64,000 bases of DNA from positions 62,001-126,000 of the forward strand of contig NW_027062660.1 in the NCBI RefSeq assembly GCF_032884065.1. The letters run 5' to 3'. Positions 17,766 through 59,472 of this stretch are shown here, one piece after another. Each line of letters starts with the position of its first letter. Position 1 is the first letter of the stretch. Below the pieces are notes generated by a model, which was not told the DNA's origin, made no database searches, and saw nothing but the letters and a program-made list of their open reading frames with translations. This DNA is from Artemia franciscana. Lineage: Eukaryota > Arthropoda > Branchiopoda > Anostraca > Artemiidae. The translations under genes and the position numbers were made by a program.

Positions 17766-17938
17766 GATGGCCAGGACAAAGATGCAAAGATATTGAAGAA
17801 GAAAAAGAAGATTCACCATTTAGAAGGAATTGGGAGAAAAATTCGATTGACGAGGTCAAAGCATGCCCAGATGCGGAGTGAAGAGGAAAGCGAAACGCTA
17901 AGAGTTGAGCTGCGAAGTTTACTTCCTACGTCTTTACA
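17766..17938 (+). CDS. CABIN1: CABIN1-like exon (basic nuclear-signal-like stretch)
   Basis: Exon of 173 bases: acceptor TTTTACAG, phase 0 start, phase 2 end, donor GTAAGA. The peptide has a lysine run (ILKKKKKIHHLEG), then RKIRLTRSKHAQMRSEEE and LRSLLPTSLQ. Vertebrate CABIN1 has the same order: a Lys/Arg-rich stretch, an Arg/Ser/Lys/Glu segment, then ELL-x-FLPSRL. The basic run may be a nuclear localisation signal (inference). It lies on the plus strand, opposite to the three exons with earlier coding positions. An upstream ATG in the same frame at 17691 is intronic, because the splice acceptor falls inside that reading frame. Confidence 0.8.
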
Positions 17939-18529
17939 GTAAGAATCTAATTTTCTTCACTAATTTTGTCCTTAACTCACATGTTAACTGCGTCTTTCAG
18001 AAGCTGAGAGAATTATGTCGCATAGACTACATCTGTCAAATATAAATAGCAAGTAATAGCAGTAAAATTTAAAAGATTCATCTATATTATTATTTCAAAA
18101 ATCGATTTTTTACCCGGTGTTTGATCTGGACAGAACTGAGCATTATTCCTTTTTGTTTTAAATTATTAATGCATTCATTCATTTTTCTGTTAAATTTGTC
18201 GATCCTGTTAACCTAATTCGGTTGTATTTCGGTCCAAAATTATATTGTTTCTACCATATTAGTTTTTAAGCTAAAAATCCTGCTGAGCTATTCAGAAGCC
18301 AAACTAACTAATTTCATAAAACAGATTATAGAGAAATGATATAACTGAAAACCATTATGGGTAGTTTATGCTATATTAATCTGTAATGAGAAGAGGTTCA
18401 TATTTTGTTAGTTTTACTTATATTTTTGGGTATTGAAAATGTGTTAAATTACATTTAGGTTTGGATATCCACACAGGAGTAACCTACTTGATAATATTTT
18501 GGCTGCCTTGTGAAATAATTTGTCGAGTG
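17939..18529 (+). other. Intron, nothing recognised
   Basis: AT-rich sequence after the GTAAGA donor. No open frame or repeat family was identified. Confidence 0.5.
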
Positions 18530-18686
18530 GAAACAAATTCTGCTTTTGTCTGCAGCTACGCAATTGTTCCAGTAATTTTGCTCCAAAAATTCTGGCGGCT
18601 TTTGGAAACTTCAAAATTAATTAACTTTAAAGTTTTTCGTTGTTTTGTAATTAACTTATTGAGTGGAAAATATGTTTCAGGGTGCC

Positions 18687-18998
18687 AGAATAGGTTTGGT
18701 CAAGAATAGGTCAGGGTGCAAGAATAGGTCAGGGTGCAAGAATATGTTTCAGGTTGCAAGAATAGCCTTGATCAAGAATAGGTCAGGTGCAAGAATAGTT
18801 CAGAATGCAAGAATAGGTCAGGGTGCAGTAATGTTTCAGGGTGCAAGAATAGGTCAGGATGCAAGAATAGGTCAGGGTGCAATAATATGTTTCAGGGTGC
18901 AAGAATAGGTTTGGTCAAGGAAAGGTCAGGTGCAAGAATAGGTCAGGATGCAAGAATAGGTCAGGGTGCAAGAATATGTTTCAGGGTGCAAGAATAAG
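18687..18998 (+). repeat. 18-bp minisatellite
   Basis: Tandem AATAGGTCAGGGTGCAAG, with longer variants containing ATGTTTCAGG or TTTGGTCAAG. About 15 units. Confidence 0.9.
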
Positions 18999-19009
18999 TG
19001 CAAACTAAG

Positions 19010-19690
19010 TTGCTTAGACTGGGAATAAGTGAAGACGAAATTCATGTTGGATCACGAGAAGATCGATCAAGTGGGTAGCTTCACTTACCTAGGTAGTATT
19101 ATTAATAAAGATGATGGGTGCAATGGAGGTACTAAAAGCTGAATAGCCAAGGCCCAGAGAATATTTTAACAGTCGAAACAATTTTGGAAGGATTGGAAGA
19201 TAAGTCTACGAGCCACTGTTAGAACATTGAAAGGTACAGTGATGACAGGGGTCAAGTATGGTTTAGAAGCGTGGGCGCTCTGGAAAACGGAAGAGGATTT
19301 GCTGGATGGTTTCTAGAGAAATTGCCTACGGGTTGTTTTGGATACCCGACTGACCGACCTTATCTCAAACACTAAACTGTACGAACAGTGCGGTTCAACC
19401 TCGCTTGTATGGCTATAATGAGAAAAAGGTTGAGGTGGCGTGTACACGTTCTGCAGATGAAGAATGATATATTGCCAAAATTATCTTTTTGGGCCAAACC
19501 ATCTTGGGCCAAACGAAAATCAGGTCATCCTGGAATGGGGGGAGAGGAGGTCGTATGGAAATATTTGAGGGAAACTAAGATTTCTTGGTAGGGGGTAAAG
19601 AGGGATGCTCTAATAGATTTGGATTGCTGTATTGGCTGTATTGGCCTCAGGCGGCTTGGTGCGGGAGTAACTTGTTAGCAGTAGTAGCAA
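19010..19690 (+). mobile_element. RTE-type LINE ORF2 C-terminal remnant
   Basis: Scattered frames give FTYLGSIINKDDG; TVMTGVKYGLEAWAL (the 'YG-ETW' region after the RT palm); an LRWRVHVLQM block; GHPG; and finally WIAVLAVLASGGL/LRRLGA, the same tail as the 9886 fragment. There are many stops and shifts. In this family the segment lies between RT and the 3' end. This one is a dead 5'-truncated copy. Confidence 0.7.
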
Positions 19691-20400
19691 TGAGTGAAGA
19701 AAAAATCAATTTTTGTCTCCCAGCTACGCAATAGTTCCGATGGTTTTACTTTAGAAATTTTGATGGCGTCTGTAAATTTTTAAATTGATTAACTTTAGAA
19801 ATTGTTGGTTGCTTTGTCATTAATTGACTGAACCGAGAAAAATTCATCTTTGTCTTACATTTAAGCAATTTTACCGGTAATTTTGTTTTAGAAATTTTGG
19901 CCGCTTTTGAAAATATGAAAATTACATTGGAATTAATTACTCACCTATATTGGCTTGATTGCTAGATTATATGAGTAGAAAAAATGTTCAACTTTTGTCT
20001 GGCAGCTGCACAATTCCTATGGTAATTTTAATGTAGTAATTTCTTTGCTTTTGAATGTTTAAAAATTAATTATTTCAGAAATTTCGGTCGCTTTGTCGTA
20101 TAATAATTTATTGAGCGAAAAGAAAAAAAAAAAATCAACTTTCGTCTGGCAGCTGCATAATTGTTCCGGTAATTTTACTTTAGAAATTTAGTTGCTTTTT
20201 GGTATGTTTAATTAATTACTTTAAAGATTTCGGTTGCTTTGTCAAATAATGCATTAAGCAGAAAGAATTCAACTTACGTCTGGCAGCCAGGTAATTGTTC
20301 CGGTAATTTTACTTGAGAAATTTTAGTTCCTTTGTCAAATAATTTTTTAGTAGAAAAATTTAGCTTTTGTCAGACAGGTACGTAATTTTTCCGGTAATAT

Positions 20401-21485
20401 ATTTTTGTTGCAGCAGTAACGGAAAACGTTGTTTAACTTTTTTCTATACAGCACCATCAAACATGGAAGCAACAAGTAAGGTTTGAGCTTTGTCCAATTC
20501 TAGCTTTTACTACATCGAAATTTTCTAAAGATGGTATATGACTCATTGTTCGTGTCGACAACGATGCCGATCAAGAAAAAATCAGGAGAGAGAAGCACTT
20601 TATATTTTGCACTGTCTACCCAGGGTAACCCGATTAGAAGAATACTTTAGAAGGATTAGGGGGGTGTTAGTCCTACGTTTGTAGGTTTGAGTTGATTATT
20701 CATAATAATATATGTTCGTTTTCGGGCCCTTGTATAAGCGGCTATTGGACTCATGTCATTTCCAAAGGCATAGTTATTGGAGTTTCCGACTATTTTGAGC
20801 AAAATGGCTATCTCAAAATCTTGATCTAATGTATTTACAGCCGAGGAGGCGAATGGGAGGGCAGCCAAAAAGAATGTGAAAGGGAGACTGTTTGCCTCCC
20901 AATCACTTTTGACTGATCAAAAGAAGGCGAGAACTTGCAATTTCAAATCAAATGACCCTCTCTCCTAATATTTCGTAGTTAACTCCTTACACGCGAAGTG
21001 GCCTGTAAAAAAGAAAACTTTCAAGTCAGGTCACTCTTTACCGAGGCAGTGCTTTTACACTGCATATAAAAAGCTAGATTTTTACCTTTTGAATGGATCC
21101 TATATGGAAAAAAAATTTGAACTTAAGAATGTGTTGCAAGGACAAAAAATTGCAGACAATACATAATTTGGGCAATAAATTTCTTTTTCAAAGGTATTTG
21201 CCATTTTTTATCATCCCTTTTGTTTTGTTGGGATCCTCAAAAACCTTCAAAGTTGAGCCCCATTCAAGTGCTCTGATGGTAAATCTAAAAACTCTAGAAG
21301 TGTAACTTCATCAAACCAGAGTGGGTTTCTTATGTTTTTAAAGACTGCTTTCGGGAACCAATAATTTCTTCTTTTTTTTTCATTGGGCTTTATTGCATCC
21401 TTGCTTTTGAATCGAACTTGTGAGAGAGTCAGAAAATTGATCTCAAATTCTTAAAAAGTTTTGATTAAAAAAAAAATTCTTCTAG
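20401..21485 (+). other. Intron, nothing recognised
   Basis: Short open frames (20656-20868 minus, 21093-21305 plus) have no recognisable domain and look incidental. The stretch ends in a T-rich/A-rich run and the TTCTTCTAG acceptor. Confidence 0.5.
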
Positions 21486-22350
21486 GCGACAAAATGAAGG
21501 ACTTAATGAATGTGATGAATCAGACATAAGAGCTGCTAATCAGAATGGCAAAATTCGGCAACAGGATTTGAAGAGCTGCGAAGTATCAGTTATAAATGAA
21601 TTTCTTGACAACCATTCAGATAGTGTCTTGGTAAACCTCATGTGGGAGTTGTTAAACACACTCTCAGACAAGTGGGAGATGGTTTGGCCAGTAGAGCTAA
21701 GCTCCGCCTTTTGCGAGCTTTACACAAGAGTCATGACACACAGACGTCATCCTGATGTCATACATAGCTATTTGGGTGATCAAAGCATCCTTCAAGATAT
21801 TAGAGTTTGTCTGCTCAGTTGTGAGTTGCGTATTGCAACTAGAATGTGTATTGAGCATGACGATTTAAGCATTTTTGCTGATCCACTTACTTGTGATCTG
21901 ACTTATTTAACACAAATCCTGTTAGTGAAAGAGTCCCTCTTTGAAACAAATGATCTTTTGCTTTTGCGCCTGCGTGCACATTATGCACAATTTAATCACT
22001 TTAAATCACTGGGGTGGTTACGACAGGGTCAGTTTGCTGCTGAAGTAGTTCTAAATATTTTTGATGATTTGAAGAAGCTGAAGGCAAATGCTGATGGATT
22101 TTTCATTAAAGATAAATTAGGTACATCTTTTATAACAGAAAGTATGTGCGAAGCGAACCTTGACGTTATCAAAAGAAGTGCTCAAATGTCAAATCTTATT
22201 GAGCTGTTCGAGAAACGCCAGTATTCACGAATCGTTGAACTAGTAAAGTGGAGTTTCCAAATTTCAAAGAAGGTTAGATCAAAAGGATTTGAACGATCCA
22301 ATGAAATTGCTATTTTTATTGAAGCACTTTTTGAAATGAAAGAATATAAG
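21486..22350 (+). CDS. CABIN1: CABIN1-like large exon
   Basis: Exon of 865 bases encoding about 289 residues. The acceptor is TTCTTCTAG, its first base completes the codon from the 17766-17938 exon, and it ends phase 0 at GAATATAAG/GTGAGT. The peptide matches the CABIN1 central region by pattern: VINEFLDNHSDSVLVNLMWE against a HEFLLENL-type helix; KWEMVWPVELSSAF against the RWPPGLAEV-type segment; a long leucine-rich helical part; then LIELFEKRQYSRIVELVKW and ALFEMKEYK against the later TPR-like EAGDYKAVV and LKDYR motifs. It has no internal stop, and its composition is clearly distinct from the AT-rich flanks. The stop five codons past the donor (VSLYSY, then TGA) is intronic. The next exon is not visible before the gap. 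Confidence 0.88.
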
Positions 22351-23042
22351 GTGAGTCTTTATTCGTATTGAAATACCTTATAATATGTGCTAATCAAAAG
22401 TATAATGCCTTTTCGTTATTCTGATTAGAATTTACCTATGCTGCAAGGTTAGTTAAGATTCTGTAAATATATGGAATGTGTTAGGTTACGTTTTACGGTT
22501 GAACGATGATCGATTGGTGAAATCTAGCTTCTTGCCCATCTATGTGGAGCCAAATGCGATTGCCTTTTCTAGACTAATTAAGATGTTGCGTACCAACTGT
22601 AGAAAGTAATGGATATTTTAAGCAAACCTTTTGCTAAATCAACAAATTTTTGACTCAGTAAATGACGTAATTTTAAGTTTAACCAGTCCAAAGGAAACCT
22701 TCTCACAATTTTAAAAGACTTGATTTCAGGCCGGAAATCTGAAACCGGAAAAGACCGAAATCAAGTTCCCAGCAACCTAATAAGTTACCAGATATTGTGA
22801 TTTGGTTGAAAATATTTCAGGGAGAAAATATATGAGGGAAAAACATTAGAGGAATAAATCAAGAGGAGGGAGGTATTGGAAGAAACAGTGGAATACGGGC
22901 TAGTGAAAGTATGGAGACTTGGGAGCGAGATTTGTATTCAAACCATTGGGACTCTCATTAGGAGGTTCAGGGAGGTTAAAATTTATTTCAGAAGAATTCT
23001 TTTATTCTCATATCTATTCAATCTTCGATTTCGTTGCTTTGG
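22351..23042 (+). other. Intron up to the gap
   Basis: Starts with a GTGAGT donor. No further exon was seen. The open frames that cross into the N run are meaningless. Confidence 0.5.
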
Positions 23043-23142
23043 NNNNNNNNNNNNNNNNNNNNNNNNNNNNNNNNNNNNNNNNNNNNNNNNNNNNNNNNNN
23101 NNNNNNNNNNNNNNNNNNNNNNNNNNNNNNNNNNNNNNNNNN
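23043..23142. other. Assembly gap (100 N)
   Basis: Exactly 100 unknown bases, the usual placeholder for a scaffold gap of unknown size. The inverted right arm starts at the first called base after it, and CABIN1 exons change strand across it, so the join is doubtful. Confidence 0.98.
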
Positions 23143-24058
23143 CGACGTTTTGAGGGGGATTTCTTTGGTTTGGGCGTGGGGTTGAGGGGAGGGGGGCTAT
23201 GTGGGAGGGATCATTTCTTGGAGTGAATATTTCAGGGGGGAAGAGAAATTCAATGAAAAGGGCGCAGGATTTTCTAGCATTACTATTAAAAAAAAAAACA
23301 ATGAAAATATAAACATGAAAAAGTTTTTTTCAATTGAAAGTAATGAGTAGCATTAAAACTTAAAACGAACAGAGATTATTACGAATATGAGGGGTTCTAA
23401 AAATACTTAGCATAAAGAGCGAAGTATTCAGGAGGAGATAAATACTTCTCTCATTATGCTAAAGTATTTTTAGTAATTTCAACTGTTTATTCTACGGCCT
23501 TTTCTGATTCAGGGGTCATTCTTAAAGAATTGGGACAAAACTTGAAATTTAGTCTGAAGAGCGAGGTATTAACGAGGGGACAAACCCCCATTAAAAGTTC
23601 TAGTTGCCTTTTTAAGTAAACGAAAGATTGGAGGGCAACTAGGCCTCCTAGGCCTTCTTCCCATCCCCTTATTTCTCAAAATCGTCTGATCAAAGCTACG
23701 AGAAAGTCATTTAGCCAAAAAAAGAATTAATATGCAAATTTCATTTGAATAATTTATGTACGGAGAGCCAAAATCAAACATGCCTTAATTCAAAAACGTT
23801 CAGAAATTAAAAAAAAAAAAACTAGTTTTTTTTTACTGAAAGTAAGGAGCGACATTAAAACTTAAAACGGACAGAAAATTACTCCGTATATTAAAATGGG
23901 TTGTCCCCTCCGCAATCCCTCGCTCTTTACGCTAAAGTTTTGACTCTTTGCCACAATTCTACTTTTTAAAACAATTAAAAACTTTAGCGTAAAGAGCGAA
24001 GTATTGCGGAGGGGGACAGCCCATTTAATATACGGAGTAATTAATAACCCCAGCTCTT
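23143..24058 (-). repeat. Dispersed repeat plus hairpin (right-arm copy)
   Basis: Reverse-complement copy of 15690-16569, including the hairpin at 23877-24046 and a second small hairpin (AGCATAAAGAGCGAAGTATT region) near 23405-23475. Confidence 0.85.
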
Positions 24059-24059
24059 C

Positions 24060-25715
24060 CAAAGAGAACGGATCCGTTCCAATCATGTCAATTTTGTATC
24101 TATAACTTGTGCTTATCTTCCCATCAAGTTTCATCCTGATCTCTCCACTCTAAGCGTTTTCCAAGATTTCCGGTTACCAAGATTTCTGGTTCATCCCCCC
24201 CAACCCTCTATGTCCCCGGATCCGATTAGAATTGAAAATAGAGCATCTGAGACACAAGATTTTTCTATATATCAAGTTTCATTAAGATCCGATCACCCAT
24301 TCGTAAGACTTTTTCGTCGATTTTCACGTTTTCCAAGAATTACGGTTTTCCCCCCCTCCAACTCCCCCCAATGTTACCAAATCTGGTCGGGATTTAAAAT
24401 GAGAGTTCTAAAGCACAAGATTCTTCTAAATATCAAATTTCATTAAGATCCGATCACCCGTTCGGAAGTTACATATACCTAATTTTTTCTAATTTTTCCG
24501 AATTACTCCCCCCCCCCCCCCCAACTCCACTAAAGAGAGCGGATTCGGTCTCCGGTTATGTCAGCCATGTATCTTGGATCTGTGATTATTCTTCCAACTA
24601 AATTTCATCCTGATCTCTCCGCTTTAAGCGTTTTCCAAGATTCCCCCCCCCCCCAATGACACTGGATCCGGTCGGGATTTAAAATAAGAGATCTGAGTTA
24701 CGAGGTCCTTCTAAATATGAATTTTCATTAAGATCCAATCACTCCTTCGTAAGTTAAAAATACGTGATTTTTTCTAATTTTTTAGAATTAACCTTCCCCT
24801 CTCAACTCCCCAAAGATAGCGGATTTGTTCCGATTATGTCAATCACGTATCTAGGACTTGTGCTTATTTTTCCCACCGAGTTTCATCCTGATCCCTCCAC
24901 TCAAAGCGTTTTCCAAGATTTTAGCCCCCCCCCCCCCAACTTCCCCTATATCACCGGATCCGGTTGGGATTACAAATAAGAGCTCTGAGAAACAATATCT
25001 TCTAAAAATCAAATTTCATTAAGATACTATCACTCTTCGTAAGTTAAAAACAACTCATTTCTTCTAATTTTTCAGAATTAACGCCCCCCCCAAACACAGC
25101 AAATCCGTTCCAGTTACGTCAATCACATATCTAGGACTTGTGCTAATTTTTCCCACCAAGTATCATCCCTATCCCTCCACTCTAAGCGTTTTCCAAGATT
25201 TTAGGTTCCCTCCCCCAACTCCCCCCAAAGTCACCAGGTCCGGTCGGGATTGAAAATAAGAGCTCTGAGACAAGATATTCTTCCAAACATCAAATTTCAC
25301 TAAGATCCTATCACTCCTTCGTAAGTTAAAAGTAACCCATTTTTTTTCTAATTTTTCAGAATTAACTACCATCCCCCCAACTCCCCCAAACAGAGCAGAT
25401 CCGTTCCGGTTATATCAAAGACGTATCTAGGACTTGTGCTTATTTTCCCTCCACTGCACCCTCCACTCTAAGCGTTTTCCAAAGATTTAGGTCCCCCCAA
25501 CTCCCCCCAATGTCTCCAGATCAAGTCGGGATTTAAAATAAAAGCTCTGAGACATAATATCCTTCCAAACATATAATTTCATTAAGATCCGAACACCCGT
25601 TCGTAATTCTTCCGATTTAACCATCCCCCACTCCCCCCAGATAGTCGAATCGGGAAACGACAATTTTTTATTTAATCTGGTCTGGTTCCTGATACGCCTG
25701 CCAAATTTCACTCTC
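24060..25715 (-). repeat. Tandem ~290-bp repeat array (right-arm copy)
   Basis: Inverted counterpart of 14030-15690, with the same unit order and small length changes in the C/G runs. An extra partial duplication of 'CCAAGATTTCCGGTT' sits near 24160-24190. Confidence 0.85.
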
Positions 25716-26392
25716 CTAGCTTACCTGGAAGTGCCTAAACAAGCAAAACCTGGACAGACAGACCGACCGACAGACAGACCGACAGAATTTGCGATCGCTG
25801 TATGTCACTTGGTAGATGCCAAGTGCCATAAAGCCAAAATACAACAAAAATCTAAACTTACAAACACAAAAATTTTGACTTAAATATACAGAACAAACTG
25901 CAGTCAAGAAAAAAAAAAGCCAAAAGACAACCAAAAAAAGAATAGAAAATAGCTTACTCGCTCAACTAGTACAAGGCAAGCATATACATACCAGAAAAAT
26001 CCAAAATGCGTATAACGTACTTCCATCAATGTAAAAGTACTCTTATCAATATTAAAAGTTGTCATAAAATCACAGGTAAAAATTTATTTTAAAAAATTAT
26101 AATATAAAATAAAGGTAAAAATGTAAATGATTTCTTTGGTAACACAGGAGCAGAGTGAAGACACAACTCGATGCGGATTTTTGAGTTGTTTCAAATATAA
26201 TAATTATTTCACTAGCAACGCATCCCTGATCCTATTGGTCCAATGTATAGCCCTAGAATATAGGTTTGTACAAGACTATAAAAAAAAATAAAGCAACAAA
26301 ATTCTTCTTTCCAATGCAGCATGTTTTTTTAATCACACGATCATGCTTACTTCCATCTGTTATCCCCATCCACACATCATTTTTAAATAATA
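25716..26392 (-). other. Intron sequence (right-arm copy of 13354-14030)
   Basis: Reverse complement of the left-arm flank of the Helitron insertion site. No gene. Confidence 0.6.
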
Positions 26393-26541
26393 CTAGCTGT
26401 TAGGGTGGCGCTTCGCACCACCCCAACACCTAGTTGGTGGGGGCGCTTCGCGCCCCCCAAGCCCCCCGCGCGCGTAGTCGTTACGTGCCATATTAGGTAC
26501 GCGCCATTGTAGTTGTGTCCCTGTGGCCCACCTGTGAATAA

Positions 26542-26663
<122 letters not shown>

Positions 26664-26666
26664 ATA

Positions 26667-28840
26667 CTAGCTGTTCCCTGTGTCCCGGTCGTCATTTGTG
26701 TCCGTGTTCAGTCTGTGATTTCTCTTTGAGTGTCCGGGCGTCATTTATATTCCTTGTGTCCCGGTGTCCCGGTCGTCATTTATATCCCCCTGTGCCCCCC
26801 GCGGTCCCCATTGTAGTTGTGTCCCTGTGTCCGGTCGTCATTTATATTCCCTGTGTCCCGGTCGTCATTTGTATCCCGGTCTGTATATACATTCGTTTTT
26901 TAGTTTTGTTTTTCTCCTTTATTTTTTTCCTTTTTTTCTTTTTTTTCTTTTTTAGTTTATTTAGATTTTTAGATTTTTTAGTTTTTTTATTAGTTTTTAG
27001 TTTTTTTGTAGTTTTTACCATTTTTTTAGTTTTTTTAGTTTTTTTTTACTTATGTCCTGGTCGTCATTTATACTCCCTGTGTCCCGGTCGTCATTTGTGT
27101 CTCGGTGCTTTGTTGATTGCTAATTTATATTATATTTACATTTTTTAAATTTATTAATATTTTTTTAGTTTTCTTTTTCTCTTATTTTTCAGTTTTTTCC
27201 TTTTTTTTAGTTTTTTCTTTTTTAGTTTTTTTTTTGTTTTTTACCTCTTTTTAGTTTTTTTAGTTTTTTAGCTTTTTTAGTTTTTTTATTAGTTTTTAGT
27301 TTTTTTTTAGTTTTTGCCTTTTTTTAGTTTTTTCAGTTTTTTTTAGTTTTTAGTTTTTTACCTTTTTTTAGTTTTTTTAGTTTTTTAGCTTTTTTAGTTT
27401 TTTTTTCTTATTAGTTTTTTTGTTGTTTTTACCTTTTTTAGTTTTTTTTCTTCTTTTGTATTAGTGTGAAATAATTCAGACGTCATATGCGGACAAACAC
27501 GACGTCACTCGACAGACAGACAGACAGACATAACCCACAAACAACTTATTTTTATATATATTTATTCATATTTTTTTAGTTTTCTTTTTCCCCTTTTATT
27601 TTTCAGTTTTTTCCTTTTTTTTAGTTTTTTTCTTTTTTAGTTTTAGTTTTTTTTTAGTTTTTTACCTTTTTTTAGTTTTTTTAGTTTTTTTAGGTTTTTT
27701 AGCTTTTTTAGTTTTTATTAGTTTTTAATTTTTTTTGTAGTTTTTGCCTTTTTTTATTTTTTTCAGTTAGTTTTTTTTTTAGTTTTTTAGCTTTTTTAGT
27801 TTTTTTTTCTTTTTAGTTTTTTTGTAGTTTTTACCTTTTTTAGTTTTTTTCTTCTTTTGTATTAGTGTGAAATAATTCAGACGTCATATCCGAACAAACA
27901 TGACGTCACCTGATCCACAGATCCACAGATCCACACACAGACAACTTATTTTTATATATATAGTTTATATTTATTAATATTTTTTTAGTTTTCTTTTTCT
28001 CTTATTTTTCAGTTCTTTCCTTTTTTTTTTAGTTTTTTCTTTTTTAGTTTTTAGTTTTTTTTGTTTTTTACCTTTTTTAGTTTTTTTAGTTTTTTTAGTT
28101 TTTTAGCTTTTTTAGTTTTTTTATTAGTTTTTAGTTTTTTTTAGTTTTTACCTTTTTTTAGTTTTTTCAGTTTTTTTTAGTTTTTAGTTTTTTACCTTTT
28201 TTTATTTTTTTTTAGTTTTTTAGCTTTTTTAGTTTTTTTTCTTTTTAGTTTTTTTTTGTAGTTTTTACCTTTTTTAGTTTTTTTTCTTCTTTTGTATTAG
28301 TGTGAAATAATTCAGACGTCATATGCGGACAAACACGACGTCACTCGACAGACAGACAGACAGACATAACCCACAAACAACTTATTTTTATATATATTTA
28401 TTCATATTTTTTTAGTTTTTCTTTTTCTCTTTTATTTTTCAGTTTTTTCCCTTTTTTTTAGTTTTTTTTCTTTTTTAGTTTTTAGTTTTTTTAGTTTTTT
28501 ACTTTTTTTAGTTTTTTTTAGTTTTTTTTAGTTTTTTTAGTTTTTTTAGCTTTTTTAGTTTTTTTATTAGTTTTTATTTTTTTTGTAGTTTTTGCCTTTT
28601 TTTATTTTTTTCAGTTTTTTTTTAGTTATTAGATTTTTACCTTTTTTTAGTTTTTTTTTAGTTTTTTAGCTTTTTTAGTTTTTTTTTCTTTTTAGTTTTT
28701 TTTGTAGTTTTTACCTTTTTTAGTTTTTTTCTTCTTTTTGTATTAGTGTGAAATAATTCAGACGTCATATGCGAACAAACATGACGTCACCTGATCCATC
28801 CACAGATCCACACACAGACAACTTATTTTTATATATATAG

Positions 28841-28841
<1 letters not shown>
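26667..28841 (-). mobile_element. Nested non-autonomous Helitron, minus strand
   Basis: Ends: CTAG at 26667-26670 and TCTATATATATAAAAAT at 28841, both in TA repeat. Its interior resembles 4520-7275: minisatellite, then the A-rich array with 5'-end blocks near 27462, 27861, 28297 and 28743. The 3' hairpins and helicase remnant are missing: CTAGCTGTT runs straight into minisatellite. Confidence 0.8.
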
Positions 28842-28929
<88 letters not shown>

Positions 28930-29063
28930 TATATATTTCCATCCCAACACCTAGAAGGTGGGGGCGCTTCAAGCCCCCCAAGCCTCCCCGCGCGCGTAAG
29001 TCGTTACGCGCCATTGTAGTTGTGTCCCCCTGTGTCCCACCTGTGAATACATATATATATATA

Positions 29064-31981
29064 TCTATCTATATAAAAATAAGTTGTCTGTGGATCTGTG
29101 GATCGTGGATCAGGTGACGTCACCTGAAAAAACTGGATCAGGTGACGTCAAAACTGAAAAAACTAAAAAAAAAGGCAAAAACTACAAAAAAAACTAAAAA
29201 CTAATAAAAAAAATAAAAAAGCTAAAAAACTAAAAAAACTAAAAAAAGGCAAAAACTACAAAAAAAACTAAAAACTAATAAAAAAAATAAAAAAGCTAAA
29301 AAACTAAAAAAACTAAAAAAAGGTAAAAAACTAGAAAAACTAACTACAAAAAAAACTAAAAACTAATAAAAAAAATAAAAAAGCTAAAAAACTAAAAAAA
29401 CTAAAAAAAGGCAAAAACTACAAAAAAAAACTAAAAACTAATAAAAAAGCTAAAAAACTAAAAAAACCAAAAAAAGGCAAAAACTACAAAAAAAACTAAA
29501 AACTAATAAAAAAAATAAAAAAGCTAAAAAACTAAAAAAACTAAAAAAACTAAAAAAAGGTAAAAAAACTAAAAAAACTAAAAACTAAAAAAAAACTAAA
29601 AAAAGGAAAAAAACTGAAAAATAAGCTAAAATAAAGGTAAAAACCAATAAAAAACTAAAAAAAAACTGAAAAAACTAAAAAAAGGCAAAAACTACAAAAA
29701 AAACTAAAAACTAATAAAAAAAGTAAAAAAGCTAAAAAACTAAAAAAACTAAAAAAACTAAAAAAAGGTTAAAAACTAAAAAAAATAAAAAATAAAAAAA
29801 AACTAAAAAAAGGAAAAAACTGAAAAATAAGCTAAAATAAAGGTAAAAACCAATAAAAAACTAAAAAGAAAAAAAGGAAAAAACTAAAAAAAATTTTCAT
29901 CTAAAAAACTAAAAAAAAATAAAAAAGGTAAAAACTAAAAGAACTAAAAAAGAAAAAAATAAATGACGACACTCAAAGAGAAAGCGACCAGGACAAAAGG
30001 AATGTCCGATTAGCAATCAACAAAGCACCGGGACACAGGGAGTATAAATGACGACCAGGACATAAGTAAAAAAAAAAACTAACAAAACTAAAAAGAAGGT
30101 AAAAACTACAAAAAAACTAAAAAGAAAAAAAACTAAAAACTAATAAAAAAACTAAAAAATCTAAAAATCTAAATAAACTAAAAAAGAAAAAAAAGGAAAA
30201 AAATAAAGGAGAAAAACAAAACTAAAAAACGAATGTATATACAGACCGGGACACCGGGATACAAATGACAACCGGGACACAGGGAATATAAATGACGACC
30301 GGGACACAGGGACACAACTACAACGGGGACACCGAGGGAACAGGGGGATATAAATGACGACCGGGACACCGGGACAGGGAATGGTCGATTAGCAATCACC
30401 ATCAACAAAGCACAAGGGCAATCATTAGAATCATGAGGTATAGATCTGAATACAGATTGTTTTCCCATGGACCATTATATGTTGCATGTTCAAGAGTCGG
30501 TAAACCTGACAATCTATTTGGATCAGGTGACGTCACCTGAAAAAACTGGATCAGGTGACGTCAAAACTGAAAAAACTAAAAAAAGGCAAAAACTACAAAA
30601 AAAACTAAAAACTAATAAAAAAAATAAAAAAGCTAAAAAACTAAAAAAACTAAAAAAAAGGCAAAAACTAAAAAAAAACTAATAACTAATAAAAAAGCTA
30701 AAAAACTTAAAAAACTTAAAAAAGCAAAAACTACAAAAAAAACTAAAAACTAATAAAAAAAAATAAAAAAGCTAAAAAACTAAAAAAACAAAAAAAACTA
30801 AAAAAAGGTAAAAAACTAAAAAAACTAACTACAAAAAAAAACTAAAAACTAATAAAAAAAATAAAAAAGCTAAAAAACTAAAAAAACTAAAAAAAGGCAA
30901 AAACTACAAAAAAAAACTAAAAACCAATAAAAAAGCTAGAAAACTAAAAAAACTAAAAAAAGGCAAAAACTACAAAAAAAACTAAAAATTAATAAAAAAA
31001 TAAAAAAGCTAAAAAACTTAAAAAAGGTAAAAAACTAAAAAAACTAAAAACTAAAAAAAAACTAAAAAAAAAGGAAAAAACTGAAAAATAAGCTAAAATA
31101 AAGGTAAAAACCAATAAAAAACTAAAAAAAAAACTGAAAAAACTAAAAAAAGGCAAAAACTACAAAAAAAACTAAAAACTAATAAAAAAAGTAAAAAAGC
31201 TAAAAAAATAAAAAAACTAAAAAAACTAAAAAAAGGTAAAAAACTAAAAAAAATAAAAAATAAAAAAAACTAAAAAAAAGGAAAAAACTGAAAAATAAGC
31301 TAAAATAAAGGTAAAAACCAATAAAAAACTAAAAAGGAAAAAACTAAAAAAAAATTTCATCTAAAAAACTAAAAAAAACTAAAAAAGGTAAAAACTAAAA
31401 GAACTAAAAAATAAAAAAATAAATGACGACACTCAAAGAGAAAGCGACCAGGACAAAAGGAATGTTCGATTAGCAATCAACAAAGCACCGGGACACAGGG
31501 AGTATAAATGACGACCAGGACATAAGTAAACTAAAAACTAATAAAAAAAACTAAAAAATCTAAAAATCTAAATAAACTAAAAAAGAAAAAAAAGGAAAAA
31601 AATAAAGGAGAAAAACAAAACTAAAAAACGAATGTATATACAGACCGGGACACCGGGATACAAATGACGACCGGGACACAGGGAATATAAATGACGACCG
31701 GGACACAGGGACACAACTACAACGGGGACACCGGGGGAAACAAGGGGATATAAATGACGACCGGGACACCGGGGCAGGGAATGGTCGATTAGCAATCACC
31801 ATCAACAAAGCTCAAGGGCAATCATTAGAATCATGAGGTATAGATCTGAATACAGATTGTTTTCCCATGGACCATTATATGTTGCATGTTCAAGAGTCGG
31901 TAAACCTGACAATCTATTTATATGCAAAGACAATGGGACAGCAAAGAATGTTGTATATTCGCAAGTTTTACGTAGTTAAAA

Positions 31982-32058
<77 letters not shown>

Positions 32059-32205
32059 CAGGTGGGACATAGGGACACAACTACAATGGCGCGTAACTAT
32101 TATGGCGCGTAACGACTTACGCGCGCGGGGGGGGGGCTTGGGGGGGCGCGAAGCGCCCCAACCAACTAGGTGTTGGGGTGGCGCGAAGCGCCACCCCAAC
32201 AGCTA

Positions 32206-32206
<1 letters not shown>
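29064..32206 (+). mobile_element. Nested non-autonomous Helitron, plus strand
   Basis: 5' TCTATCTATATAAAAATAAG at 29064 and 3' CAACAGCTAG ending at 32206, both in TA repeat. It contains a GGATCAGGTGACGTCA block, a long A-rich array, minisatellite and a partial helicase end (30383-30520). A second round of GGATCAGGTGACGTCA, A-rich array, minisatellite and full helicase end (31783-31979) follows, then a TA tract and the hairpins. The inside is thus duplicated in tandem (about 29110-30520 against 30520-31980). Confidence 0.8.
31783..31979 (+). pseudogene. Helitron helicase C-terminal remnant
   Basis: Motif V/VI fragment with the single shared TGA after QSLES, then [16 protein letters not shown], the [12 protein letters not shown] segment and the TAA at the TA tract. 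A shorter copy at 30383-30520 stops within PDNLF, where GGATCAGGTGACGTCA begins. Confidence 0.8.
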
Positions 32207-32297
<91 letters not shown>

Positions 32298-32300
<3 letters not shown>

Positions 32301-32497
32301 ACTACGTAAAACTTGCGAACATACAACATTCTTGGCTGTCCCATTGTCTGTGCATATAAATAGATTGTCAGGTTTACCGACTCTTGAACATGCAACATAT
32401 AATTGTCCATGGGAAAAACAATCTGTGTTCAGATCTATACCTCATTATTCTAATGATTGCCCTTGTGCTTTGTTGATGGTGATTGCTAATCGAACAT
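32298..32497 (-). pseudogene. Helitron helicase C-terminal remnant
   Basis: Right-arm partner of 12552-12749: same double stop, motif V/VI fragment and TA tract at the stop codon. Confidence 0.8.
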
Positions 32498-32869
32498 TCC
32501 CTGTGTCCCCTTCGTCATTTATATATCCCCCTGTGCCCCCCGGCGTCCCCGATGTTGTTGTTTCCCTGTGTCCCGGTCGTCATTTGTGTCCTGGTGTCCC
32601 AGTCTGTAATTTCTCTTTCAGTGTCGCAGTCGTCATTTATACTCCCTGTGTCCCGGTCGTCATTTTTGCCCCGGTCGTCTGTCCCGGTCAATTTCTCTTT
32701 GAGTGTCCTGGTCGTCATTTATATTCCCTGTGTCCTGGTCGTCATTTTTGTCCCGGTGCTTTGTCGATGGTATATTCCCTATGTCCCGGTGTCCCGGTCG
32801 TCATTTGTGTCCCGATGTCCCGGTCTGTAATTTCGTCAGTCGACAAACATGACGTCACTCGACAGACAC

Positions 32870-34654
32870 ACAGAAGTAATTTTATTATGTAGCCAGATTA
32901 GTATATGTGCGTGTGGCAAACCTCGTTTTTGCCATTCCACTGAGTACATCCAGCATCGCACTGACCCAAACACTTCAAGTTTTACTATGTAGTTTATCAG
33001 TGATTTCAACTTTTGCCGGAAGACACGTGCCGTAATGTCATGTCTATGATAGGCCGATTGTCCTTGAAGTAAAATCTGCTGTATCTCGTCCCAAGATTGA
33101 TTACATGTAAGTGTAATAAATAAATCTGGACGACCATAGAGACGAACATACGCAATAGCATCTTGAGCATATTCATGCATATGACGGGAACTGCCAGCAT
33201 ATGACGAAGGTAAAATCGTTAATCTTCCAACGTTTGTGGTATTACCGTCATTTACAACTGCATCTCGCAAATGAATGTATTGTTCAGAGCGGAGCTTGGT
33301 CTGATTCAGACGGATATATAGCAAACGTTCTGATTCAATTTTTGCATACATATCAACGACGTATTGGTGAAACAATTGACGGCATTTTAAAATATAATTG
33401 TCTTCATCCTGCCGAATCATTAGTTCATAGGAATAATAATGCATTGCATTGCATTTCTTATTCATTTCTTTATTAATGGCTGGATTCATGAATTTAATAT
33501 TAAAGTGATAGCCGTCGGCTCCATCCCAAAAAATGATAGGATATTGTAGGGCATCGTAGCATCGATGAGTTTCAGCAATTCTTACCAACTGAGCGTTTCG
33601 CTTATGAAGAAAAATATCTCGAGGTAAAAATTGATCACCGACCATAACGATTGCCACTTCGTCGATAGTTGGAGCATTGTATCTACGCACATGTTGACCA
33701 GGAGGCGTTTTGTCAGCGGATATAACAATTTTATGCGTATCAGTAGGCATCAAATCGATGGCTGTTTTGAACAGACACACTAAATTATCATTTTCGTGAA
33801 AAAGATGTTGCAATTGGGAAACGATTGTCCTTTCAACGTTGGGAGAAATTTCGCAACGTGCATTCAATTCAGAAGTTCTATCACTGATGAAGTACAATTG
33901 TAAAAATTTATGATTCTCGCCTGAGAATGGTAGAAGGGACCCAGCTTTATGATAAATTTGCCCTTTTACTTTGAAAGTAGGCATAAATTGATCTGGATTT
34001 TCCATTTGGGCACCAAACGACGTCATTTGGAAACATGAGTTATATTTTATTCTGACGTAGTTCCAGTAAACAAAGTCTTCAATGGCTCTGGTGGTGCAGC
34101 CAATAGAGGAAGTTTAACTTTTCCTCTATTGGCACAACACATTCCCATTGTTTCACCATTGAATTTCAAGGCCTTGCAATAGGGACAAATTTTAGACATA
34201 GTCCCGACTTGAACACATCTACTCAAGCTATAATCATCGACTGGGCTGTACCTGAATGTCAGGCGATAATTTTCAGGTTGCTCTTGTGATTCCTCGGCAC
34301 GCTTTCTTTTCTTACTATCTCTATCAGCCGCAAGCCTGTTTTCTTGCTGTTCTTGTGATTCCTCGGCACGCCTTCTTTTTTCACTTTCTCTTTTAGCAGC
34401 AAGTCTGGTTTTGCGTTGCTCTTGTGATTCCTCGGCACGCTTTCTGTTCTTACTTGCTCTATCAGCCGCAAGCCTGTTTTCTTACTGTTCTTGTGATTCC
34501 TCGGCACGCCTTCTTTTTCACTTTCTCTTTTAGCAGCAAGTCTGGTTTCGCGTTGCTCTTGTGATTCCTCGGCACGCTTTCTATTCTTACTTTCTCTATC
34601 AGCAGCAAGTTTTTTGGTATAGACTCTTTGAGCAGCTTCCTCGACTGTTGACAT
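32870..34654 (-). pseudogene. Helitron Rep/replicase N-terminal half (better preserved, right arm)
   Basis: An open frame of about 390 codons (34026 down to 32836) runs from MTSFGAQMENPDQFMPTF through GRPDLFITLTCNQSWDE and RGLPHAHILIWLHN (HUH) with no stop. Upstream, RAEESQEQ repeats (34654-34259, shifted by indels) and a zinc-finger-like MSKICPYCKALKF with both CxxC cysteines are present. The protein breaks off straight after HUH, where a CTGTCGAGTGACGTCATG segment starts. The catalytic tyrosines and helicase core are therefore missing. It differs from the left-arm copy by lacking the TGA and the extra T. A full-length family member would be over 1000 residues. Confidence 0.85.
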
Positions 34655-34989
34655 TTAAATTTTACACATTTAATTTTATTGACATTTAATTTTACAATTA
34701 AACATTTTTCCGTGAACGAATGTCTTAAATACCTTTAATGACGTCATCGTCATAATGACGACATGACGACCTGATGACATGGCGTCACTCGACAGACAGA
34801 CACAAAGAAAACTTATTTTTATATAGATAGATAGATTGGCCTAATATATTCAGATATAGACCAAATAGTTTTAACAGTTCAGATAACCCCTTTACAAATA
34901 AACAAAGCATCGACAAATTGCAAAACAACAGAAAAATATACTCGTTATGTTTATATATGGGACTATAAAGGGGAAGGATACAAGTGAAA

Positions 34990-35135
34990 CCACCACCACT
35001 ACTATTAACAACTCCCGCAGCACCAAGCCGCCTGAGGCCAACACAGCTACGCACGCTCCTCATCCATTCAAAGCCTCCATCTTTACACCCTTCCAGGAAG
35101 TTCAAATTAAATCTTTCTTTTATACATCCTCCCAT
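34990..35135 (-). mobile_element. RTE-type LINE 3'-end fragment (right-arm copy)
   Basis: Partner of 9886-10030: WMRSVRSCVGLRRLGA followed by GTAGTGGTGG on the minus strand. Confidence 0.6.
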
Positions 35136-35244
35136 CTCTACCGTCGACCTGCTTTCTGTTTTACAAGTGAAATGATTATTATTTTTAGACGGATCATAAA
35201 AGATATATCGAATAGTATTTTCATATTGTCCCTACGTCACCAAT

Positions 35245-35655
35245 GACACCATGTATATGTTATCATGAATGTCTGAAATCTGGTTAATGTCGAAATTAAC
35301 CGGTGAATGTCCGAAATTTCTTTTTCTCTGCTTGGATTCAATTAGCTTTGCGAGTCAGTTTTTTCAGTCTTACGCAAGCTTTGATGGTAAAAGTTAAAAT
35401 TAGGTTATATTATGTTAGTTTAGGTTAGATTAAGTTAAATTAGGGTAGATTAGGTTAAATTTGATTCTAAATATCAGAAATGGGTTTAAAACGTAACCTA
35501 AGCTAACCTAACCAAATCTTATCTAACTTAACCTGTCATCATCAGACCTTGTATTGAATTAAAAAAGTTGACTGGCAACCCAGACTAAATCCAAGAAGAA
35601 AAAAAGGCATTTCGGACATTCACCGGTGAATGTCGACATTCACCAATTTGAGGAT
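35245..35655. mobile_element. Foldback element with TTAGG-like core (right-arm copy)
   Basis: Partner of 9352-9770, with the same inverted ends and the same AGGTTAG/CTAACCT-type core. Confidence 0.6.
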
Positions 35656-35875
35656 ATTCGCGGTAACATATATATTTACCAGAATAAATTTGAAAATTTT
35701 CAACGTGGTTATTAGTCACTATTAAAATATGCAATAAAATAGGGTAAGAATTTCTGCAAATCATCCTTGACGATTCTGCTTCGATTCTCTAAGCTCTTTA
35801 TGTCCCAAGTCTCGCAATGGGAAGTTTTGAAAGATTCCTTTTAAAAGGAGGGAGAGGGACTCAGTGAAAGTCAAA

Positions 35876-36236
35876 GCTGAGAAATTTAAGTGAAAAATTT
35901 AAGTGAAAAACTTAAGTGAAAAATTTAAGTGAAAAATTCACAGTCAAGAAATACCGCCTTGTTTCAAATTTTAAGTGAAAAATTTAAGTGAAAAATTCAC
36001 AGTCAAGAAATACCGCCCTGTTTCAAATTTTAAGTGAAAAACTTAAGTGAAAAATTTAAGTGAAAAATTTAAGTGAAAAATTCACAGTCAAGAAATACCA
36101 CCTTGTTTCAAATTTTAAGTGACAAATTTAAGTGAAAAATTCTCAGTCAAGAAATACCGCCTTATTTCAAATTTAAAGTGAAAAATTTAAGTGAAAAATT
36201 CACAATCAACAAATACCGCCTTGTTTCAAATTATAT
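35876..36236. repeat. Minisatellite (right-arm copy)
   Basis: Reverse-complement partner of 8760-9125. The unit number and order differ slightly (fewer AAATTTAAGTG repeats in places). Confidence 0.85.
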
Positions 36237-36239
36237 TAA

Positions 36240-37568: not shown

Positions 37569-37570
<2 letters not shown>
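36240..37570. other. Unique intron sequence (right-arm copy)
   Basis: Reverse complement of 7423-8755 with scattered substitutions and a few short indels. No gene recognised. Confidence 0.6.
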
Positions 37571-37644
<74 letters not shown>

Positions 37645-37784
37645 TATATTAGCTGCTGGGGTGGGGCGCCCCAACACCTAGTTGGTGGGGGCGCTTCGCG
37701 CCCCCCAAGCCCCCCCCCCCGCGCGCGTAAGCCGTTACGCGCCATATTAGTTACGCACCATTGTAGTGTCCCACCTGTGAATAT

Positions 37785-37863
<79 letters not shown>

Positions 37864-37865
<2 letters not shown>

Positions 37866-38064
37866 TAACTACGTAAAACTTGCGAATATACAACATTCTT
37901 TGCTGTCCCATTGTCTGTGCATATAAATAGATTGTCAGGTTTACCGACTCTTGAACATGCAACATAAAATTGTCCATGGGAAAAACAATCCGTATTCAGA
38001 TCTATACCTCATTATTCTAATGATTGCCCTTGAGCTTTGTTGATGGTGATTGCTAATCGAACAT
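37864..38064 (-). pseudogene. Helitron helicase C-terminal remnant
   Basis: Partner of 3031-3227 with the TAATGA double stop. Here CSRVGKP is intact, whereas the left-arm copy reads CSTVVKP. Confidence 0.8.
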
Positions 38065-38604: not shown

Positions 38605-38685
38605 TGCTAAAGCCAAGGTTCGAACCTGGAACCTCTCAGATCTAGAGCCTGGAACATGACGCTTTACCAGCTCAGCTACTTCGGC
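38605..38685 (-). other. tRNA-like sequence inside Helitron (right-arm copy)
   Basis: Counterpart of 2340-2420 with a few substitutions (GCTC for GTTC, CTGAG for CCGAG). The box A- and box B-like blocks are intact. Confidence 0.5.
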
Positions 38686-42351: not shown

Positions 42352-42459
42352 CTGTAAGTCGGTATCCTCAACTTCGGAAGGCGTATCAGAAGACGGTTGA
42401 GAGCTGATCAATAGGGGAGCTTCAGACTTCAACTTGACTTTGATTATATCCGAGAACGA
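42352..42459 (-). CDS. CABIN1: CABIN1-like small linker exon
   Basis: A 108-base exon (36 codons, phase 0 at both ends) between TGTCTTCTAG and a CAG/GTAATT donor. The peptide starts SFSDIIKVKLKSEAP and ends in a Ser/Glu/Asp-rich run. It is low-complexity and acidic, like the poorly conserved CABIN1 linker between the first TPR block and the basic stretch. Sequence similarity alone would not identify it. The call rests on the splice signals, the open phase-0 frame, and the exact phase match to the exons before (51463-51673, minus) and after (17766-17938, plus). It is the last exon seen on the minus strand. Confidence 0.65.
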
Positions 42460-44004: not shown

Positions 44005-47669
<3,665 letters not shown>

Positions 47670-49565: not shown

Positions 49566-49569
49566 AATA

Positions 49570-50990
49570 TAATAATAATAATTAATAATAGCAAAAAACT
49601 TATATTTTGTTGCACTTCAGCACAAAATTAAGATAAAGATATCATTCTATAGCAAAAGCTATTAATTCGATCTTGAGTAATTCGATTTTTTTTTATAATA
49701 TTGCAACAGTACTACAAAATATTTAAAATATTTTTGCAACAATACCTAAAATATTTTTGCAACAATACTTAAAGTATTTTTGAAAAGTTGGGACTAATTG
49801 GGATTCTAATAAGGAGTCTTTATTATGAATCGAAATAAAAAAATATATGTATATATATAGACCATTGCATTCATCATTTCCTAACCTAGATGATCAGGAA
49901 ATTATCACTTTTTTCAAGGTTCAAGGTTCTCTTTTACAGTAGCAATGAAATACACAATTTTACATTTTTTTTTTCGTTGGCGAGGAGCAGAGTTCGTATA
50001 CTAACGAGAAAAAAAAATAAAATAAAAAATACATCATATTACTGAAATAAACACAACTATTCATGCCTGATTTTCTTATTGAAGAAGCAACACCGAAATA
50101 CCACTCAAACCTACCGTCAAACACTGGTTCATTCGAGACAATACTAACTTAAATTATCAGGCTTACACTAGGCAGGGTGTGCAGAAAGATCAAATCCAAA
50201 CAATCACAAAATAATAAAAATAATAAATACAAGCATTGAATACAAGCAAACGTTTTCCGGTATGGGGGGAGGGTTAACAATTTTCAAGGGTGATTCCCTT
50301 CCCCTCTCGTGTACAGTATTCCAGGTAGCAAATTACAGCCAATATGAAATATATTTTGATAATCAATCCACGAAATTTTCATTAGACTAGGCGATTCGCA
50401 AGGTCTTAATATGACCCTGATTACTCTTTTCGTTGGTTACATAGCTTGGATTATTGTTATCCATCTAATTTCTACTTAATAACTTACAAAAGTTCGAATA
50501 GCAATTCGGCTCCAGTCAATTTCAATAAGTTCCGACACAGGTAATTGTCCTACACCAAAATAAGTTTAAATTTTTTAATTTTTAAAGCATTGAATGACCA
50601 ACGTTCTGAGCCGAAATCTAATGGTAGCAAGTGACAATGTTACATCTATAAATACGATAAACTTAGACCAAATCAAAGGAACCATGTACCGCACTGTAAA
50701 TCTTGACCATCTGAAATCTGAATTATCATTTCAATATTATAATTCGGTGGGTGCCCTCTTAAGTGTCAATGAACGAACCCAACACTGATTTTAGAAAAAT
50801 GGATGAAATTCGATATATTGCTTTTAGTCAGACATTGAAAGCAGAAAAGAAGAGCTGGGAATTTTCTATTCCAATTAAAATTTGTAAGTAGAGTATTTGT
50901 GTTAAATAGATCGAATTTTATAGTGTGGTTGGAAAGCTGTATTAAGTTGTAAGTAGTGTATGGAAAGTTATAGTTTAGTAAGAAACTGCA
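49570..50990. other. Intron, nothing recognised
   Basis: AT-rich sequence. It has short repeats such as AATATTTTTGCAACAATAC near 49730-49770 and no supported gene. Confidence 0.5.
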
Positions 50991-51132
<142 letters not shown>

Positions 51133-51462: not shown

Positions 51463-51673
51463 TCTACCATCAGGATTTGAGGTTAAAGAATCGTAGTATT
51501 CAATTAGAGAGTGGCAAAGAGCCAAAAAAGTTGGTTGATCAACAATTAACGTTGCTTGCTTTGCTGGTTCCATAGGGGGCACTTGAAATCTGAGTTTACG
51601 CAGTGAAAGTGCTTCTTCCATAAACGAATGAACCAATCCTTCATCACAGGGGTAGGTATCCCACAAACCAGAC
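51463..51673 (-). CDS. CABIN1: CABIN1-like exon
   Basis: Internal exon of 211 bases. The acceptor is TTTGAAG, the first base completes the codon left open by the 59-kb exon, and the end is phase 0 before GTAAGT. The peptide carries SFMEEALSLRKLRFQ and later IVDQPTFLALCHSLIEYYDSL. These correspond to the CABIN1 stretch with VDEALGLRKKRQ followed by an aromatic/leucine-rich helix, just after the TPR block. Phase and peptide order both support joining it after the 59264-59472 exon, about 7.6 kb upstream in the gene. Homology comes from remembered family sequence, not a search. The exon is plainly coding-like against repeat-rich flanks. Confidence 0.82.
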
Positions 51674-57510: not shown

Positions 57511-57522
57511 TAAAATTATAAG

Positions 57523-57600
57523 AACTTACATATTGACCATGGATGGCAGATTTTACTTTATAGTTGGCTGAACCTTAATTATTTAAGCTGATCCTTTGTT
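57523..57600 (-). pseudogene. Decayed copy of CABIN1 exon 3' end and donor
   Basis: On the minus strand TTCAGCCAACTATAAAGTAA, ATCTGCCATCC and the GTAAGTTCTTATAATTTT donor region match the end of the real exon at 59264-59310. With the SINE and one target duplication removed, homology continues to 57255 (CAGTGACATGAAAC against CAGCGACATGAAAC at 59229). The matching frame is broken. Confidence 0.7.
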
Positions 57601-57679
57601 ATTTGTTATATAAGCTGATCCTTTGTTATTTTTCAGCAGTATTTTGGCTCCAAAATTTTAATACTAATAAATACATCAA

Positions 57680-59225
57680 AAGAATCAGATTTTTATGCTC
57701 ACTTTAAGTATATAAGTTTCATCAAATTTAGTCGTACTCATCAAAAGTTACAAACCTGAGAAAATTAGCTTTTTTTAGAAAATAGGGGGAAACACCCCTA
57801 AAAAGTCATAGGATCTTACCGAAAATCACACCATCGCATTCAACGTATCAGAGAACCTTGCAGTAGAAATTTCAATTTCTTATCTACAAAAATATGGAAC
57901 ATAGTATTTTTTGCCAGAAGACCGATACCGGGTCCGTGTTTATTTGTTTGTTTGTTTATTGTTGTTTTTTCCCCAGGGGTGATCGTATCGACCAAGTGGT
58001 CCTAAAATCTCACGAGCGGGCTCATTCTAACGAAAATTAAAAGTTCTAGTGCCCTTTTCAAGTGACCAAAAAACTGGAGGGCACCTAAGCCCCCTCCCAC
58101 GCACATTTTTTTCCCAAAGTCAACGGATCAAAGTTTTGAGATAGCTATTTTGTTCAGCTTAGTCGAAAAACACAATAACTATGTCTTTGAGGCTGACTTA
58201 CTTCCCCACAGTCCCCGGACGAGGGCCTGCAAGTTACAAACTTTGACTAGTGTTAACATACAGTAAGTGGTTGCTGGGAAATATACAGATCTTTTCAGGG
58301 GAATTTTTTGGTTGGGGGGGGGGGGGTTGAGAGGAGGAGCTACGCGGGAGGATCTTCCCTTGGAGGAATTTGTCATGGGAGATGAGAAATTCCATGAAGG
58401 GGCCGCAGGATTTTCTAGCATTATCTAAAAAAAAATGCAAAATAAATAAGTTTTTTCAACTGAAAGTAAAGATCCGCGTTAAAACTTAAAACGAATAGAG
58501 ATTATTGCGCATATGGGCGGTTTATCTCCTCTTAAATTCCTTGCTCTTAACTCTAAAGTATTTATAGTAATTTCAACTATTAATTCTGCAGCCTTTGTGA
58601 TTCAGGGGTCATTTTTAGAGAATTGGGACAAAATAGCTTTAATGTAAAGAGCAGGTATTAACGAGGGGGCAAACCCCCTCATATACATAATAAAATACGA
58701 ATATAGAAGTTCGCTACGTAAGTTAATTTGTATATTTTTACTAATAAAAACGTTCGTTAAAAATTAAAAATTCTAGTTGCCTTTTTAAGTTACCGAAAAG
58801 GGCAACTAGGCGTCCTCCCCACCCTTTTTCTTAAAATCGTCTGATCGAAACTAGGAGAAAGCCATTTAGCAAATAAAAATAATACGCAAAAGAGCCAAAA
58901 TCAAACATTCATAAATTCAAAAACGTTCAGAAATGAAACAAAAAAAAAGCTTTTTTAACTGAAAGTAAGGAGCGACATTTAAACTTAAAACGAACAGAAA
59001 TTACTCCGTGTATGAAAGGGGCTGTTCCCTCCTCAACGCCCCGCTCTTTACGCTGAAGTTATTTACCGTTTTATAAAGTAGAATTGAGAGAAAGAGTTAA
59101 ACTTTAGCGTAAAGAGCAGGGCGTTGAGGAGGGAACAGCCCCTTTCATATACAGGGTAATTCCTGTTCGTTTTAAGTTTTAATGTCGCTCCTTACTTTCA
59201 GTTAAAAAAAATAGTTTTTTTTTAT
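57680..59225 (-). repeat. Dispersed repeat plus hairpin (third copy)
   Basis: Inverted, diverged counterpart of 15690-17100: AAACACCCCTAAAAAGTCAT near 57790, GGGGCCGCAGGATTTTCTAG near 58400, and the hairpin at 58993-59165 with CGCTCTTTACGCTGAAGTT arms. It ends beside the CABIN1 exon donor. Confidence 0.75.
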
Positions 59226-59263
59226 TTAATCAGCGACATGAAACCAAAATTATAAGAACTTAC

Positions 59264-59472
59264 ACATCATTGAACATAGATGGCAGGTCTTCCTTTATAG
59301 TTGGCTGATCCTTAACTATAGCATCTCGAATCGCATGTCCTTTCAAAAACGTGGGATCCATCTTGAAAGCAGCTTTGATGTAATATAAACAGCTGACGTA
59401 GTCAAAAATGGCAAACAAAAGGGTGATCAGCTGATCTAAACAGGGCCAAAATGATGGAGTCGCCGTAAATCC
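59264..59472 (-). CDS. CABIN1: CABIN1-like exon (TPR region)
   Basis: Internal exon of a calcineurin-binding protein cabin-1 homologue, 69 codons plus 2 bases. It begins after TTTACAG (phase 0) and ends before a GTAAGT donor (phase 2). The peptide contains PSFWPCLDQLITLLF, then DYVSCLYYIKAAF and FLKGHAIRDAI. This follows the helix pattern of the vertebrate CABIN1 TPR segment (HWPCLDNLITVLY, then TTCLYFICKAL), by comparison with the family from memory. CABIN1 is known as a TPR scaffold that binds calcineurin and MEF2 and works with the HIRA histone-chaperone complex; that role is carried over from the family. Decayed copies of the exon's first part lie just upstream, and a decayed copy of its 3' end lies at 57523-57600. 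No earlier exon was found in the rest of the window, so the N-terminus probably lies beyond 64000. Confidence 0.85.

Follow-up and report, generated by a model that had tools for sequence, protein, structure and literature searches.

The 64,000-nt window analysed here (scaffold C74:62001-126000 of the Artemia franciscana genome assembly; positions are those of the window unless prefixed with C74) carries exons of CABIN1, a subunit of the HIRA histone H3.3 chaperone complex. We conclude, with a probability of roughly 0.93, that these exons belong to one ordinary CABIN1 gene that was broken by a scaffolding error, in which a short contig (contig B) was placed in reverse and was not merged with the next contig (contig C). 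B is probably an end-overlapping neighbour of C that derives from another haplotype. The arrangement represents a known kind of assembly artefact and not new biology.

Gaps of 100 N lie on C74 at 59845-59944, 85043-85142 and 492376-492475, and the second of these is the one that the window contains:

1..23042, plus strand: the part of contig B within the window, very probably the misoriented piece; the whole contig is C74:59945-85042 (25,098 bp), flanked on both sides by gaps of 100 N.
23043..23142, no strand: the 100-N scaffold gap at which the exon strand changes; the only N run of the window.

Contig C begins at C74:85143 (window 23143) and is gap-free to C74:256000, that is, for at least 170 kb. 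Five exons are distributed over the two contigs, three on C and two on B, and are given here in the order in which they would be transcribed:

59264..59472, minus strand: CABIN1 exon, TPR region, phase 0-2; AG/GT, open frame, profile match with an expectation value (E) of 2.5e-24.
51463..51673, minus strand: CABIN1 exon, phase 2-0; AG/GT, open frame, part of the published protein P0005.
42352..42459, minus strand: probable CABIN1 exon, phase 0-0, the least certain of the five; AG/GT, open frame.
17766..17938, plus strand: CABIN1 exon, phase 0-2, with a basic stretch, on the reversed contig; AG/GT, open frame, part of the published protein P0004.
21486..22350, plus strand: CABIN1 exon, phase 2-0, on the reversed contig; AG/GT, open frame, profile match with E 2.3e-19.

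Every one of the five is preceded by AG and followed by GT, the phases along the chain run 0-2, 2-0, 0-0, 0-2 and 2-0, and the joined exons (1566 bases) form a single open frame of 522 codons. Agreement of phases alone is weak support; the case rests on homology and on the contig overlap described below. For the first exon, the published donor at 59276 reads GTTCAA; the one used here, 12 bases on at 59264 and in the same phase, reads GTAAGT and fits the consensus better. Beside this exon, 59384-59982 holds a degenerate array of tandem units similar to the exon's first part, some of them interrupted by in-frame stops; these are partial exon copies in tandem.

The exon at 42352-42459 is little conserved and is not in the published model. 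Since its phase is 0-0, leaving it out does not disturb the reading frame. When the minus strand from 39300 to 51462 was scanned in a simple way, nine exon-like candidates including this exon were listed; a single reverse-transcriptase-type frame contains four of the other eight. That it is a CABIN1 exon is plausible but not proven.

The assignment to CABIN1 follows from homology to successive parts of one protein. P0005, annotated from the minus-strand group, matched residues 1-290 of cabin-1 from the horseshoe crab Tachypleus (E 8e-48), and P0004, from the plus-strand group, matched residues 520-799 of the same protein (E 1e-7). P0005 also matched the N-terminal part of bat cabin-1 (E 3e-42), whereas the match of P0004 alone to bat cabin-1 was not significant (E 0.02). 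The joined sequence matched a wasp protein at 1-364 and then at 626-886, the second match arising from residues 412-666 of the join (E 6e-9). When we searched for relatives of this wasp protein (7984 candidates scored), we obtained 167 proteins including itself, and very many among the 120 listed were named calcineurin-binding protein cabin-1. A CABIN1 profile built from six species matched the 666-residue join at positions 1-315 and then 483-750, in order and without overlap. The N-terminal TPR and middle regions are thus colinear with arthropod cabin-1, and the N-terminal part also with bat cabin-1. We found no paper naming both cabin1 and artemia in the literature searched.

Support differs among the exons. 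In single-exon searches with the profile (E<=1), two of the five matched, 59264-59472 and 21486-22350; the same profile also matched an upstream exon at C74:127458-127712 and two degenerate copies of the exon at 59264. The exon at 51463-51673 draws its support from the alignment of the joined sequence. The exon at 17766-17938 falls between both profile matches and is supported by the published model and its splice sites; judged by eye only, its run of basic residues is similar to the KRRSARVR stretch found in relatives.

Domain searches agreed with a TPR-containing N-terminus. In Pfam, P0005 matched TPR_2 (E 1.4e-10) and TPR_1 (E 1e-8), both above the curated cut-off, whereas P0004 matched nothing above the cut-off, no family was returned for the joined 522 residues, and on the wasp protein the TPR models stayed below the cut-off. 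A sequence search of the PDB with the joined protein gave three weak matches to FACT subunits (E 0.14-0.16); with the wasp relative it gave 28, and those named were designed or TPR-type proteins and fusions. PF09047 was listed for the vertebrate matches in the wasp relative search. The MEF2-binding region belongs to the C-terminal part of vertebrate cabin-1, and the portion of CABIN1 located at this locus amounts to no more than about the first third of the gene.

An earlier note on this DNA had described a five-exon in-phase CABIN1 series whose strand switches at the 100-N gap. The phases are as it stated, the splice dinucleotides (5/5) and the 522-codon frame agree with it, the strand of the exons changes across the sole N run of the window, and the matches of both strand groups to one Tachypleus cabin-1 uphold the gene assignment.

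The sequence provides stronger evidence than the exon phases in the form of an inverted overlap between the ends of the two contigs. Three blocks of B match the start of C on the opposite strand:

13071..16569, plus strand: inverted overlap block 1; partner 23143-26666 on the minus strand, 95.1% identity, ending at the first base of contig C.
7343..12840, plus strand: inverted overlap block 2; partner 32207-37649 on the minus strand, 95.4% identity.
1785..3312, plus strand: inverted overlap block 3; partner 37781-39238 on the minus strand, 90.7% identity.
23143..39238, minus strand: partner arm at the start of contig C, colinear with the reversed window 1785-16569.

The span present twice is 15-16 kb, with 10.5 kb alignable. 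Ungapped substitutions number 91/3470 in block 1, 102/5394 in block 2 and 41/1442 in block 3, or 234 in 10,306 pooled columns (2.27%). Past the overlap B runs on alone, with the exon at 17766 following 1.2 kb later; C stops within an intron, and B continues through that intron to the next two CABIN1 exons. Pairs of 25-mers shared by B and C and unique within C74:1-256000 were inverted in 4297 cases and direct in 221, and the inverted pairs lie mostly on one descending diagonal, with some strays elsewhere.

If B had been misplaced from elsewhere, its resemblance to C would be mere transposon similarity. Both arms do carry a Helitron-type frame, and the overlap includes repeat families, partial copies of which are numerous and in some cases reach 96-97% identity. 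We searched two of the three blocks (1 and 2) against the whole genome. For block 1 (129 matches, the best 40 of 31,837 candidates scored), the only full-length (3499 bases) non-self match among the scored candidates was C74:85143-88666 on the minus strand; the other scored places covered only part of the block, and none of those exceeding 140 bases was more than 91% identical. For block 2 (59 matches, the best 40 of 13,403 candidates scored), the only full-length (5498 bases) non-self match among those scored was again the partner in contig C, although partial copies elsewhere reach 96-97% identity; the repeats inside this block are no evidence, and the full-length match is. Each of the two large blocks thus has a single full-length partner among the scored candidates, and the CABIN1 exons on B follow those on C, so that a foreign origin of B is scarcely credible.

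The Helitron_like_N frames lie at 11418-12281 (plus strand) and 32836-34113 (minus strand), one per arm, and measure 425 amino acids in contig C and 287 in contig B, an allele-like kind of difference. A dispersed repeat at 13914-15694 recurs in many partial copies across the genome, with 81-87% identity in the longer copies, and holds tandem units of about 280-290 bases.

The layout as assembled, with arm, loop, gap and arm in succession, is also what a real inverted repeat would give. Two arms of 15-16 kb would then enclose a loop of at least 6.5 kb, containing the exons at 17766 and 21486, that flips by recombination, and some chromosomes in the population would carry CABIN1 split over both strands, so that the gene is broken in some animals. 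We regard this as very unlikely. The two arms occur together on no single contig, their sole link being the 100-N scaffold gap; the match stops precisely where a contig does (though contigs may also break at the ends of true repeats); and a genome search with the fifth exon (21486-22350) returned one match, the window's own copy.

When the B stretch 16570-23042 was compared with the scaffold sequence analysed, no match lay at the right end of B among the matches listed (11 of 115 and 7 of 7), and the non-self matches among them fall in 16570-19687. At the gap C74:492376-492475, the best 8 of 37 matches included one of 428 bases (90.9%) that begins with base 1 of the right piece; it stops about 0.86 kb short of the end of the left piece, and we rejected it as an end overlap.

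In the published annotation the locus consists of two genes, QYM36_017847 and QYM36_017848, each of which has an exon that our reading makes doubtful:

13684..13728, plus strand: probably spurious first exon of QYM36_017847; 15 residues, within the overlapped (duplicated) intron.
50673..50720, minus strand: probably spurious last exon (tail and stop) of QYM36_017848; outside the profile-supported exons.

Two separate neighbouring genes on opposite strands would match this annotation, which had RNA-Seq and Iso-Seq evidence. However, in other animals the counterparts of both proteins lie one after the other within a single CABIN1 protein, the start exon of QYM36_017847 lies within the duplicated intron, where it has a counterpart in contig C (26021-26065, minus strand), and the tail of QYM36_017848 lies outside the exons that the profile supports. 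We consider two genes extremely improbable. A gene annotator presented with the split locus would instead have made two genes from it, each with a false end.

How a single gene came to be split can be suggested from the history of the assembly, which appears to be that of Jo et al. 2024 (PMC11492255). As described there, it was built from 14 pooled females with Purge Haplotigs; Hi-C scaffolding "did not work well"; RagTag was applied with A. sinica, following a step with ARCS, LINKS and Tigmint; and the authors called the duplicated BUSCO value somewhat high. According to its description, RagTag takes the orientation of a contig from the primary, longest merged alignment and by default inserts gaps of 100 bp (PMC9753292). 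The scaffold was presumably built by RagTag and not by ARCS/LINKS. B and C probably stem from two haplotypes of the sequenced pool, as the 2.3% substitutions and the differences in repeat length suggest, in which case the assembler did not merge them because they came from different haplotypes. A scaffolder that orients contigs by the longest alignment to A. sinica and leaves 100 N between pieces could then have set the short, repeat-rich B backwards. The case resembles a RagTag orientation error (PMC9753292) in its 100-bp gaps and in an orientation that depends on the primary alignment to a reference. It also resembles the false heterotype (haplotypic) duplications described by Ko et al. 2022 (PMC9516828), with two divergent haplotype copies, a gap between them and a false gene annotation; unlike those, the copy here is inverted and partial, at a contig end, and a gene was split instead of gained.

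Several observations weigh against this explanation of the locus. No colinear partner in C beyond 39238 exists for the outermost 3,840 bp of B (C74:59945-63784). Repeat-rich insertions without counterpart interrupt the overlap, 4.0 kb in B (3313-7342) and 5.5 kb in C (26667-32206), and the overlap consists partly of dispersed repeats. The substitution divergence of 2.3% exceeds the heterozygosity of 0.655% given for the species (PMC7955100). The profile search detected no CABIN1 exons after the fifth in C74:1-256000 or C74:456001-529349, where it found three real exons and otherwise only degenerate partial copies of the exon at 59264. Finally, the annotation lists two genes at the locus and, as its authors state, drew on RNA-Seq and Iso-Seq (PMC11492255). 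The unpartnered end of B, the insertions and the divergence may be no more than is expected of two haplotypes in a repeat-rich genome assembled from 14 pooled females, and greater divergence is typical of haplotypes that become duplicated (PMC9516828). The haplotype origin of the overlap copies is suggested by their divergence alone (2.27% substitutions).

The smallest repair is to flip B in place and to merge the overlap. All exons then lie in order on the minus strand, and the intron from 42352 to 17766 measures about 19-20 kb. The earlier note had also inferred a misoriented contig at the 100-N gap, which the inverted end overlap of B and C and the colinear homologues bear out. It proposed to flip 23143-64000 and to place it before the left contig; this yields the same relative order, but the smaller piece to flip is the left contig of 25,098 bp. 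Reorientation, as it proposed, is right but does not suffice, as the end-to-end overlap, which had gone unnoticed, must be merged as well.

One locus of a published chromosome-level genome is thereby corrected: a single CABIN1 gene very probably underlies both annotated entries, and the 25-kb contig B stands in reverse. Errors of this kind could be screened for cheaply, by searching 100-N gaps for contig ends that overlap in inverted orientation and for genes interrupted at the same gap. The assembly measures 1.27 Gb and the k-mer estimate is 0.87 Gb, although another assembly of the species measures 1.13 Gb (PMC11492255, PMC7955100). Given this excess over the k-mer estimate, similar cases may exist elsewhere in the assembly.

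Two further features lie among the CABIN1 exons of contig C. A reverse transcriptase frame at 48775-49581 on the minus strand (RVT_1, E 5.1e-26) marks an element resembling a long interspersed nuclear element (LINE) within a CABIN1 intron. At 44026-46459 there is a 2.4-kb nearly pure TG repeat, with about 1,218 copies and 99% matches.

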